A stretch of 64,000 nucleotides of DNA from Bacteroidaceae bacterium (GTDB taxonomy: Bacteria; Bacteroidota; Bacteroidia; Bacteroidales; Bacteroidaceae). Shown here in pieces: positions 12,292-57,281 of this stretch. Within the stretch, counting starts at the first letter, position 1, and each line of letters opens with the position of its first letter. Position numbers and translations under genes: made by a program. The notes below the pieces were generated by a model. It saw nothing but the letters and a program-made list of their open reading frames with translations, had not been told where the DNA came from and did no database searches. Location of the stretch: assembly GCA_017464815.1 (NCBI GenBank), contig JAFTYI010000035.1:1-64000 (forward strand). The letters run 5' to 3'.

Positions 12292-12353
12292 CTTCCCCCA
12301 CCTCCGATTTCATCACCGACTAATACATGTGGGATGAACGGGGGTGGGGGAAG
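12292..12353. terminator. Possible terminator-like hairpin after the DUF4407 gene
   Basis: CTTCCCCCACC (12292-12302) pairs with GGTGGGGGAAG (12343-12353), with inner pairing TTCATC / GATGAA. The loop is long and no strong T-run follows, so it may instead be a repeat structure. Confidence 0.35.
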
Positions 12354-12411
12354 TCTGTTATTCCTATTTTGGGAGGAGATGAGAATGATATTTTCTGGAA
12401 TAGGGAGTGTT

Positions 12412-12795
12412 TGGCGGGAGAACGCCAAAACATGACAAATGGGGAGAATATGAAAGTAGAAGCTGAACGGGGAAACGCTAAAGCATGGCAAATGGGAAGG
12501 ACATGAAAGCTGAAGCCGAACGGGGAAACGCTAAAGCATGACAAATGGGAAGGACATGAAAGCTGAAGCTGAACGGGGAAACGCTAAAGCATGGCAAATG
12601 GGAAGGACATGAAAGCTGAAGCCGAACGGGGAAACGCTAAAGCATGACAAATGGGAAGGACATGAAAGCTGAAGCTGAATGGGGAAAACGCTAAAGCATG
12701 ATAAATGGGAAGGACATGAAAGTTGAAGCTGAACGGGGAAACGCTAAAGCATGATAAATGGGAAGAATATGAAAGTTGAAGCTGAATGGGGAAGG
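12412..12795. repeat. Seven-unit 53-bp tandem array left of the RAYT gene
   Basis: Units begin at 12412, 12465, 12518, 12571, 12624, 12677 and 12731 (one unit is 54 bp because of an extra A), with a partial eighth from 12784. The typical unit opens GAACGGGGAAACGCTAAAGC and ends near GAAAGCTGAAGCC. The outermost unit has the hairpin TTGGCG-GGAGAA-CGCCAA in place of the degraded ACGGGGAAACGC core, and is the version most like the repeats on the other side of the transposase. Fifty-three is not a multiple of three, so this is not a protein repeat. Confidence 0.85.
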
Positions 12796-12890
12796 GCAAA
12801 ATAAATGACTAAGGCAGGACGGGAAATACAAAATGATACGGTTTGATAATTTTTTTCGATTCAACTTATGTGTGAATTATAAATAATGAG

Positions 12891-12898
12891 TACTTTTG
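12891..12898 (+). promoter_or_regulatory. -7 box of the RAYT promoter
   Basis: TACTTTTG matches the consensus. It overlaps an in-frame TTG, which is therefore unlikely to be the start codon; the ATG at 12920 lies about 15 nt after the expected transcription start. Confidence 0.5.
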
Positions 12899-12919
12899 TC
12901 GCAAAATCTATTACAACAA

Positions 12920-13933
12920 ATGGCAAAGGTACACTGGACACCGGAGGGGTGGCGATGCGAGAAACAAAAAGATCACTTGTATAGGGCCAAATGGATGGAC
13001 TACAGTTCCCCGTCCATCATGTTGCTGACGTTGGTTACTTCTGACCGTTTGCCTCTTTTGGGCGAGTTACACGGTGAGCAAATCGTTCTCTCTCCCCTTG
13101 GTCAAAGGGTGGCTGAGGAGGTGGAACGGATTCCATCCTACAAGGGGGCTTCGTCAATAGAGATATACAACTATGTGGTAATGCCTGACCACGTGCATAT
13201 TTTACTGCGTATTCATGACCGGTTGCCCAAGCATATAGGACAGTACGTTCGTTGGTTCAAGTATCAATGTTCTAATCTTGCGGCTCTTCCCGCAAGTGAT
13301 GGTAACACTCTGTTTGCTCCTGAATATCACGACCGGCTCCTTACGAGAAAAGGACAGCTTGCCCATATGGCCCGATATATACAGGAGAATCCCCGACGCT
13401 TGGCTCTGAAACGAGCTAACAAAGATTTATTCCGTATCCGACAACATATAAAGATTGGTGAGATTTTCTGTACAGTACTTGGTAACATTTTCCTTGCAAG
13501 ACATCCCCAACGTCAAGTGCTTCAATGTTCGCGCAAATTGACAAACGAACAGATTGAGGCACGAAAAGATGAATGCCTTGCAGAAGCCGCTAATGGTGCA
13601 GTGTTCATCACTGCAGCTATTTCAGAGGGGGAAAAACGAATTGCGCGAACACTTCGTGAGGAGGGTTATCCACTCATTATCCTACTTGAGAAAGGATTTC
13701 CAGAGCCTGATAGTCCGCATTACCGCTACTACAAGCCACAAGGTGTCTATTTTGAGGCTTGTGCAGCTGGCAGGTTGTTGTTGGTGGAGCCGAATGCGGA
13801 ATCGTTTGAGCAAAAAGGAATTGTAGCGAATGTTATGGCTAAAACGGGGGATATTCCGCATACTACACAGCGTTATCGTTTTGTGGCGTTGAATGTTATG
13901 GGTGAGAGCATGTGCAGGGAATTGGATGAATAG
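12920..13933 (+). CDS. REP-associated tyrosine transposase (RAYT, IS200-like Y1 HUH) with extra C-terminal domain
   Basis: Protein of 337 residues. The N-terminal half (about 1-180) is a Y1 transposase: the HUH motif is VVMPDHVHILLRIHDRLP (about residues 84-101) and the catalytic Tyr is in MARYIQENPRRLALKR (about 150-165). RAYTs nick and rejoin single-stranded DNA next to REP hairpins. The C-terminal half (about 190-330) is a separate alpha/beta domain (GAVFITAAISEGEKRIARTL, YPLIILLEKGFPEPDS, AAGRLLLVEP) resembling a DprA/SLOG-like Rossmann fold. Unlike classic IS elements the gene has no flanking IS ends. Instead, tandem arrays with a shared GGCGGGARAACGCC hairpin lie on both sides, as expected for a RAYT and its REPs. 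Start chosen after the -7 box. Confidence 0.82.
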   Translation: MAKVHWTPEGWRCEKQKDHLYRAKWMDYSSPSIMLLTLVTSDRLPLLGELHGEQIVLSPLGQRVAEEVERIPSYKGASSIEIYNYVVMPDHVHILLRIHDRLPKHIGQYVRWFKYQCSNLAALPASDGNTLFAPEYHDRLLTRKGQLAHMARYIQENPRRLALKRANKDLFRIRQHIKIGEIFCTVLGNIFLARHPQRQVLQCSRKLTNEQIEARKDECLAEAANGAVFITAAISEGEKRIARTLREEGYPLIILLEKGFPEPDSPHYRYYKPQGVYFEACAAGRLLLVEPNAESFEQKGIVANVMAKTGDIPHTTQRYRFVALNVMGESMCRELDE

Positions 13934-13934
13934 A

Positions 13935-14165
13935 CTCGGCGGGAAAACGCCGAGGCGAAACAAAGACAGGAGAGAGAAGAGCATAATAAAAAAGCAAGAA
14001 GGGGAAAATGGGAACTTGGCGGGAAAACGCCGAGACGAGACAAGGGCTGGAGAGAGAAGAGCATAATAAAAAAGCAAGAAGGGGAAAATGGGAACTTGGC
14101 GGGAAAACGACGAGGCGAGACAAAGGGGTGGAGAGAGAAGAGAATTAACGCCGAGGAGAGACAAA
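13935..14165. repeat. 80-bp tandem array right of the RAYT gene with hairpin cores
   Basis: Three units spaced exactly 80 bp, with GGCGGGAAAACG cores at about 13938, 14018 and 14098, plus a truncated fourth near 14148. The first core forms CTCGGCG-GGAAAA-CGCCGAG, a 7-bp stem with a 6-nt loop, immediately after the RAYT stop codon. The rest of the unit is purine-rich (GGAGAGAGAAGAGCATAATAAAAAAGC). The core matches the hairpin in the outermost unit of the array on the left of the gene. Confidence 0.85.
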
Positions 14166-14240: not shown

Positions 14241-14271
14241 TTGATTGTTTGGGGGAATTGCATTATCTTTG
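14241..14271 (+). promoter_or_regulatory. Promoter of the CotH/dockerin-like gene
   Basis: Perfect -7 box TATCTTTG at 14264-14271 with TTGATTG at 14241-14247 upstream. The start codon is 50 nt downstream, after AATCCTATTTATCCTATTT. Confidence 0.55.
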
Positions 14272-31239: not shown

Positions 31240-31305
31240 ACCTTAACCCTGGCTTAAGGTTACCTTAACCTTGGCTTAAGGGCACCTTAACCGCCGGCTG
31301 ATGCC
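31240..31305. repeat. Three 22-bp tandem repeats
   Basis: Units at 31240-31261, 31262-31283 and 31284-31305, beginning ACCTTAACCCTGGCTTAAGG. They are of the same family as the five units at 55725-55834. The third unit includes the stop region of thiD, so the last residues of ThiD (about SAGG) are repeat-encoded. Confidence 0.8.
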
Positions 31306-55724: not shown

Positions 55725-55834
55725 ACCTTAGCCCTGGGTTAAGGTTGCCTTAGCCCAAGGATGAGGTCACCTTACCCCTGGGATGAGGTCACCTTAGCCC
55801 AAGGATGAGGTCACCTTAACCCTGGGATGAGGTC
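55725..55834. repeat. Five 22-bp tandem repeats
   Basis: Units at 55725, 55747, 55769, 55791 and 55813, with consensus about ACCTTARCCCWRGGATGAGG. Odd and even units alternate CCTGGGATG and CCAAGGATG. Same family as at 31240-31305 and the terminator at 27033. The last unit touches the stop codon of the ABC ATPase gene. Confidence 0.9.
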
Positions 55835-57281
55835 ACCTGTGTCGCTTCAGGTGGAGACGATGGGTGATGCACGAGGGGAGTTCCTCCTCGTAGTGGCTCA
55901 CCATGATGAGCGTCTTTCCCGGGCGCTGGCAGAAGGTGTCGATAATCTCCTTCACCATCTCTCCGTTGCAGACATCAAGGCCGTGCAAAGGTTCGTCGAG
56001 GATGAGCAACTGGGGATCTTTGACAAAGGCACGCGCCAACAGGCAGAGGCGTTGCTCACCACTGGAGAGGGTGAGGAAATCGCGGTCGCGCAAGTGAAGA
56101 ATGCCGAAGAGCTGCATCCACCATTCACACACGGTGCGTTGCTCGGGAAGGGTGCGCCGGTAGAGGCCCACCGAGTCGTGAAGGCCCGAAGCCACAATGT
56201 CGATGGCCGGCAGGTTTTTCAGATAGGCGCGGTGCATCTCGGGCGAGACGTAGCCGATGTGCTTCTTTATCTCCCAAATGCTTTCGCCCGTGCCTCGGCG
56301 ACGGTCAAAGAGGGTGATGTCGCAAGCGTAGGATTGCGGATTGTCGGCACAGACGAGGCTCAACAACGTAGATTTTCCCGCACCGTTTTCACCCGAAAGT
56401 GCCCATCGCTCGCCATTCATCACCGTCCAGTTGAGCGTGTTCAGGATGGTGCGCTCACCATAGCGGATGGAGACGTTGCGAAGCTCCACAATCTTCTCAG
56501 CCTCAATGTCATCCGTCCGACGAGGGAGGGAGAGCAGGGCTTTCCGCTTCTCATCGTCCAACACTTCCGCACTTTGGCGACAGATGCCCCTGTGCTCCGC
56601 CAACGTCCGCTTCTCGCCACACGTCATCTCCTCCACCTCCACCACGTGGGTGATGAAGTCGGGGATGTCCTCCGTTTTAGAGAGGACGAGGATGAGTTGC
56701 AAGTCGCTCTCCCGCGTCAATGCCTCGAGCAATTGGCGCAACTGGGTGCGCGTGGCAACGTCCAAGCCGATGAAGGGATTGTCCAAGATGAGCACACGCG
56801 GATTGCCGATGAGTGCCTTCGTCAGGTGAAACTTGCGCATCTCGCCACTTGAGAGCAGGATGGAGGTCTTTGCCAGCATCTCCTCAATGCCGAAGAGCTG
56901 ATAGAGACGACGGCGCATTTCCAGGTCGCCTCCCTCAGGCATCAGTTCGGCCACGGTAGGGTAGATGTCGGCATCCTGGCTGTTCCATCGTTGCTGGTAG
57001 TAGTAGCTTCCCTCGGCCGTGTCGCCATAGGTGTCGCGAAAAGCCATGTAGCGGATGTTGTCGAACGCCATGCGCGAGGTGCGCGGTGCGAAGTCATACT
57101 CCACATCATTCATTAACAGGGGATATTTGCCAATGAGCGTGTTCACTAGCTCGCTCTTTCCTCCGCCGTTAGGCCCCACGATGGCCATGTGTTCGCCCGC
57201 CTCAAGGACAAAGTTTATGGGCGCCTTCATGCGGTGAATCGGATGACGGGCAATGCCGTCGGTTATCTTTATAATGCTCAT
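55833..57281 (-). CDS. Double ATPase of ABC type (ModF-like)
   Basis: Protein of 482 residues with two ABC ATPase domains and no membrane part. Domain 1 (about 1-240): Walker A GPNGGGKSELVN (about 36), signature LLSSGEMRKFHLTKAL, Walker B VLILDNPFIGLD, where Asn replaces the catalytic Glu. Domain 2 (about 265-480): Walker A GENGAGKSTLLSL, signature TLSSGEQRLCLLARA, Walker B LLILDEPLHGLD with the Glu present. ModF/PhrA-type proteins have this plan, linked in E. coli to molybdate and photorepair loci, but without a fixed role. No permease is adjacent. One degenerate and one intact site is a common asymmetric arrangement. Confidence 0.87.
   Translation of the reverse strand: MSIIKITDGIARHPIHRMKAPINFVLEAGEHMAIVGPNGGGKSELVNTLIGKYPLLMNDVEYDFAPRTSRMAFDNIRYMAFRDTYGDTAEGSYYYQQRWNSQDADIYPTVAELMPEGGDLEMRRRLYQLFGIEEMLAKTSILLSSGEMRKFHLTKALIGNPRVLILDNPFIGLDVATRTQLRQLLEALTRESDLQLILVLSKTEDIPDFITHVVEVEEMTCGEKRTLAEHRGICRQSAEVLDDEKRKALLSLPRRTDDIEAEKIVELRNVSIRYGERTILNTLNWTVMNGERWALSGENGAGKSTLLSLVCADNPQSYACDITLFDRRRGTGESIWEIKKHIGYVSPEMHRAYLKNLPAIDIVASGLHDSVGLYRRTLPEQRTVCEWWMQLFGILHLRDRDFLTLSSGEQRLCLLARAFVKDPQLLILDEPLHGLDVCNGEMVKEIIDTFCQRPGKTLIMVSHYEEELPSCITHRLHLKRHR

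Follow-up and report, generated by a model that had tools for sequence, protein, structure and literature searches.

The described systems closest to the locus analyzed here are the REPtron or TnpA_REP (RAYT) systems of E. coli, Stenotrophomonas, and Marinomonas, in which a HUH/Tyr single-strand nuclease is encoded beside its hairpins (PMC8266576). There, related RAYTs bind folded single-strand REPs and cut next to the hairpin, the REPs of Marinomonas are said to cluster near their gene, and those of Stenotrophomonas possess an 8-bp stem and a 3-nt loop (PMC8266576). In a survey of TnpA_Y1 proteins, subclass 2.4 from Bacteroidetes (median 194 aa, motif NH[IFV]H, GT[AG]G REPs) carries in-frame REPs between HuH and Tyr, a trait called unique to 2.4, and subclass 2.6, also from Bacteroidetes (median 179 aa, Tyr motif YIH[QN]NP), is flanked by atypical secondary structures, with no in-gene hairpin mentioned in the passages on it (PMC6006769). 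The survey further links large C-terminal domains to a lack of REPs (PMC6006769), and REPs inside genes at large are already known (PMC3733652).

The locus studied here lies in a stretch of 64,000 nucleotides, referred to as the window. It resembles the REPtrons in that a gene for a HUH/Tyr nuclease stands beside its hairpins, which cluster near the gene as in Marinomonas, and many in-gene hairpins of its relatives have the stem and loop sizes of the Stenotrophomonas REPs. Unlike the REPtrons, it lacks a GTAG tetranucleotide, its hairpins are confined to the locus, and it has a large C-terminal domain and an in-gene hairpin. With subclass 2.4 it shares the in-frame hairpin between HuH and Tyr, but its protein has 337 aa and a DHVH motif, and its in-gene hairpin is no GTAG REP; with subclass 2.6 it shares the atypical flanking structures, but differs from it in protein length, in the Tyr motif, and in the hairpin within the gene, which the passages on 2.6 do not mention. 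In-frame REPs at the same position of the gene are therefore already published for another subclass, and the present locus is a variant of that arrangement. A literature search, mostly at the level of titles and abstracts, found no description of a clade combining a large C-terminal domain with atypical and in-gene hairpins.

In our judgment this is probably a REPtron-like locus, consisting of a RAYT-kind Y1 HUH transposase with an extra C-terminal domain that carries its likely cognate hairpins upstream of the gene, in frame within it, and directly after its stop codon. The protein would most likely recognize these hairpins where the DNA is single-stranded, such as in the lagging-strand template, and Tyr153 would cut beside them before the ends are rejoined. 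The outcome in the window's genome would be local, with hairpins at the locus only, both in the gene and on its flanks, and with adjacent arm-less tails amplified in tandem, probably by slippage; in relatives, the right hairpin would also have been rearranged. What the analysis shows is the anatomy, the occurrence of the hairpin beside the gene in several species, its confinement in the assembled part of this genome, its dispersal in two genomes of a related genus, and the excess of in-gene hairpins. By contrast, we infer that the protein binds and cuts the hairpins, as related RAYTs do, that it acts through the lagging strand, and what brought about the amplification.

The transposase gene (12920..13933, plus strand, with an alternative TTG start at 12896) encodes a Y1 HUH/Tyr protein of RAYT-like type, the translation of which contains the motifs PDHVH and YIQENP. 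Counted from the start at 12920, the codons of the HUH motif (H91-V-H93) occupy 13190..13198 and that of Tyr153 13376..13378, and neither of the HUH histidines nor Tyr153 varies among 21 aligned sequences, that of the window protein included. The protein passes the Pfam model Y1_Tnp with 25.5 bits (curated cut-off 23), whereas its 45.2 bits for the NCBIfam model REP_Tyr_transpos are far under the curated cut-off of 80; the latter model is matched by all 21 aligned members at the loose threshold of E ≤ 1. These matches bear out the preliminary description, made from the letters alone, which had recognized a RAYT-like protein with HUH and Tyr motifs. A profile of the 21 aligned sequences detects the ISDra2 transposase structures (2xm3, E 2.5e-4) with the nuclease half only, and the TnpA proteins of IS200/IS605 belong to the same nuclease family. 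The C-terminal extension (residues ~176-337; 13445..13930, plus strand) gave no match in searches against known families. A likeness of this domain to DprA in hhalign comparisons (E 0.051, improving to 0.0055 with a deeper profile, at a probability of 6.6%) was dropped and is not claimed, because an N-terminal control scored about equally (E 0.0084).

On both sides of the gene, tandem arrays contain a common hairpin with a 7-bp stem and a 6-nt purine loop. Tandem Repeats Finder delimits a left array of 53-bp units (12416..12793, 7.1 copies, 92% matches) and a right array of 80-bp units (13934..14142, 2.6 copies, 92% matches), in agreement with the seven and three units counted earlier. That one hairpin core is common to both arrays was likewise recovered by a repeat search, in which 12409-12440 matches at 13934, 14014, and 14094. 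When folding as single-stranded DNA is compared with shuffled sequences, the outermost left hairpin, TTTGGCG-GGAGAA-CGCCAAA (12410..12429), obtains a z score of -4.4, and the first right hairpin, CTCGGCG-GGAAAA-CGCCGAG (13935..13954), which begins 1 nt past the stop codon, one of -5.6. The second right hairpin (14015..14034) has one G-T pair (z -2.3) and the third (14095..14114) one broken pair (z -1.1); a half copy belonging to repeat family D4 and consisting of right arm and tail only follows at 14147..14165. All of these lie on the plus strand, the left and right flanking hairpins thus sharing one orientation.

The inner units of the left array behave differently. Of the four that were folded, two being identical, none surpasses its shuffles (z +0.3 to +1.1), and by eye they retain text like the loop and right arm and are devoid of the left arm. 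The left array therefore seems to have arisen by amplifying a unit already deprived of its left arm. The inner units had been described as decayed forms of the core; the further proposal that REP units were amplified on each side is wrong for the left one, where the amplified units that were tested have no hairpin. In the relatives L025, L026, and L083, one intact hairpin is likewise followed by arm-less tails (seen by eye and uncounted). Further upstream, directly after the preceding gene, an inverted repeat (CTTCCCCCACC ... GGTGGGGGAAG, window 12297-12353) was noticed by eye and is perhaps a terminator.

The many copies of the core expected elsewhere in the genome are not found. In the assembly of 2.63 Mb (58 contigs, about 79% complete, so that some copies could be hidden), the exact core GGCGGGARAACGCC occurs three times, each time at this locus, compared with zero matches for the reversed pattern. 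With as many as 2 mismatches allowed, the genome yields 20 matches, of which four belong to the locus, and the reversed control yields 22. Neither these searches nor a wider pattern or a covariance model revealed dispersed copies beyond control level in this genome. In-gene hairpins show no dispersal in a 459-kb sample of the same genome (window included) or in a 400-kb sample of genome G233. A reading as dispersed REPs thus fails for the window's genome. A second identical copy of the transposase gene is absent from it as well, the next relative being a divergent RAYT-like gene (L007, G000:C6:76599-77555), about 49% identical over part of its length, which has an in-gene hairpin of its own (CTGCGAT-TCA-ATCGCAG) and is without the flanking core.

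Within the genus, the gene is present in three of 15 genomes at E ≤ 1e-30, and of these 15 the three gene-bearing ones alone contain the exact pattern CGGCGGRARAACGCCG, in each case adjoining the gene. If as many as 2 mismatches are tolerated, the pattern is matched in all 15, mostly near control level, with some genomes above it (e.g., G012 with 20 vs. 10). A covariance model built from 11 hairpins was run over 21 genomes, with at most 150 first-pass candidates scored per genome, and gave 12 matches at E < 1e-5; 11 of these are the training sequences, adjoining the gene in seven genomes, and the sole new one lies in G065 on another contig. Strong matches beside the gene thus exist in seven of nine gene-bearing genomes, the two without one being G065 and G267, and the 12 congeners devoid of the gene have no strong match (best E 0.0095). 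As had been proposed, the hairpins go with the gene: versions of them stand beside it in most gene-bearing relatives, and as far as tested the hairpin is tied to the gene. In the 11-hairpin model five of the seven stem pairs are changed on both sides, i.e., in a compensating manner, a count that leans towards structure as the model hairpins were partly picked for perfect stems. No 5' tetranucleotide of the GTAG/GTGG type is conserved among the 11 hairpins, and L026 has a decayed right hairpin that folds no better than shuffles (z +0.2). Twelve of the weaker matches to the model were looked at: three, all in G167, belong to a single other repeat; another, in G278 (C30), resembles by eye a decayed copy of the hairpin of genus g30, and the others seemed unrelated by eye. 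The G167 repeat (L164, L165, and L166) is found on three contigs with similar flanks and has the hairpin CCTATGCG-GAAAAA-CGCATAGG in minus-strand reading.

The hairpins at both ends of IS200/IS605 elements have the same orientation, as do the flanking hairpins here, and the left and right hairpins might accordingly be the two ends of a low-copy IS200-like insertion sequence, moving rarely as a whole unit. The patchy occurrence of the gene within the genus is consistent with this, and so are the gene neighbors, which differ between species; in genus g30, the upstream neighbor is present in seven of 19 genomes. Moreover, G288 has no transposase between the two genes that enclose it in G083 and G167; the two are direct neighbors there, and the transposase must therefore have been gained or lost in g30. 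However, the intergenic DNA of G288 does not align, so that the gained or lost piece has no readable borders. An empty site was not found for the window's own neighbors: the match to the downstream neighbor in G002 starts only at 14245, and the left neighbors are not syntenic. In contrast to IS200/IS605, the unit is not multi-copy in its genome, it has arrays, and its protein has a C-terminal extension alien to IS200 TnpA; no relatives on viral contigs, plasmids, or phages were confirmed. Tandem hairpin copies and in-gene hairpins are, to our knowledge, not features of IS200. On balance, we consider an insertion sequence of this kind unlikely.

Two rearrangements involve the right hairpin. In a comparison of G083, G065, and G167 (L059-L061, L122), the right hairpin of G065 has about 760 bp, which look like an mnmC-type methyltransferase gene, in place of its left arm and loop, and the hairpin copy of G065 on another contig includes the last bases of the gene. 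Compared by eye with L026, L025 is missing the right hairpin together with the end of the next gene. It is a guess that the enzyme caused these two events.

In other groups the hairpins may be dispersed. The gene-adjacent hairpin GCCGCAG-ACAA-CTGCGGC of two genomes from genus g19 has, at up to 2 mismatches, 13 matches in G201 (control 0) and 10 in G175 (control 1), only three of which lie at the gene in either case. Since the hairpin of the gene is dispersed in these two genomes, relatives of the window locus do behave as a REP/RAYT system, and the dispersal expected of such a system is seen in a related genus. By pattern, a second palindrome precedes 14 of the 20 g19 copies that were fetched, plus one differing by a single letter; the dispersed compound element of G201 and G175 (L095-L114) consists of the palindrome GGCCGTGCTTCGCCGGCC, 6 nt, the hairpin GCCGCAGAAAACTGCGGC, and the tail GTACAGGAAAGC. 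In the GCGGATANAATCCGC group, exact matches are found solely beside the gene in four of five genomes, and the fifth, G240, has one-mismatch matches only, two of them adjoining the gene. Each of the five also has one one-mismatch match away from the gene, against one control match overall, a slight excess which we do not read as dispersal. Dispersed and largely locus-confined states therefore both exist, and the homologous genes of the wider family, many of which hold an in-gene hairpin, may represent stages of one system.

The part of the locus that seems most worth following is a hairpin inside the coding sequence, absent from the preliminary description. It reads CTTGCGG-GAAGAG-CCGCAAG on the minus strand (13277..13296, z -4.6), in an orientation opposite to that of the flanking hairpins, and sits between the HUH and Tyr motifs. 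In the window's clade its pairing is kept, with two pairs changed on both sides (CTTGCGG/CCGCAAG, CTCGCGG/CCGCGAG, and CTCTCGG/CCGAGAG). A search of 301 genomes from one bacterial family detected homologs of the gene in 74, and 91 genes (window, L007, L025, L026, L059-L085, and L209-L268), chosen among the matches listed with some contig-end or weaker matches left out, were surveyed for hairpins with a perfect stem of at least 7, a loop of 3-7, and at least 4 G+C per arm. Of the 91 genes, 61 have such a hairpin in the coding sequence (dinucleotide shuffles 17.1, sd 3.6), 26 have one within the left 400 nt (3.3 by shuffling), and 15 have one within the 60 nt that follow the gene (0.4 by shuffling).

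They are concentrated between the two catalytic motifs. Among the 89 genes in which both motifs were recognized (L065 and L074 being dropped, and L078 and L079, the interval of which was mis-set by the motif search, being counted as without hairpin), 53 possess a hairpin between HUH and Tyr, against a mean of 5.0 and a maximum of 10 in 100 synonymous-codon shuffles. Hairpin density amounts to 2.99 per kb in this interval and to 0.25 in the remainder of these genes. When each 60% identity cluster is represented by a single gene, a HUH-Tyr hairpin is present in 15 of 35, this being a plain count outside the shuffle comparison. Of 87 family genes (L078 and L079 being omitted), 34 lack an in-gene hairpin under the same criterion. 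The in-gene hairpins comprise 33 distinct inner stems, and 39 of 72 combine a stem of 8 or 9 with a loop of 3.

Genes with a hairpin have longer HUH-to-Tyr stretches (median 279 nt in 53 genes) than those without (210 nt in 34 genes; L078 and L079 excluded), which suggests that the in-gene hairpin arose by insertion. In L063 an identical hairpin is repeated within the gene, which looks like insertion as well. L063 and L064 also contain a long low-complexity in-frame insert rich in Asn, Ala, and Thr between HUH and Tyr. A 7-nt arm is common to in-gene and flanking hairpins in seven of 18 genes, compared with 13 of 306 between-locus pairs, the 18 genes not being independent and the two sides of the comparison using slightly different in-gene limits. 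With the five usable representatives of 60% clusters, internal and flanking stems gave no signal, as 817 of 5000 permutations reached the observed mean. It is a quite doubtful idea that the gene keeps its own recognition hairpin, which would encode a variable loop between the catalytic motifs so that DNA target and protein co-change. If true, enzyme and substrate would have a built-in link, which would explain how hairpins diversify fast while the system persists.

The hairpins might instead be operators, in DNA or mRNA, by which the protein controls its own gene after having lost mobility, a possibility that would suit their local confinement, seen in the window's genome as well as the GCGGATANAATCCGC group, and the position of one hairpin directly past the stop codon and of another within the gene. 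Yet such self-regulation leaves the dispersal in G201 and G175 and the tandem copies unexplained, and the repeats in L063 look like insertion; we regard it as quite unlikely. That the hairpins are a mutational by-product is very improbable: template switching during replication, which reportedly can give rise to hairpins (PMC8794818), might make or mend perfect ones in a variable loop that tolerates insertion, as the longer HUH-to-Tyr stretches indicate, but flanking hairpins are strongly enriched too, and the arms common to in-gene and flanking hairpins (negative in the test with five representatives) speak against it.

Apart from this locus, the window contains two separate arrays of similar 22-bp units, at 31240-31292 (ACCTTAACCCTGGCTTAAGGGC) and at 55725-55838 (ACCTTAGCCCTGGGATGAGGTC).
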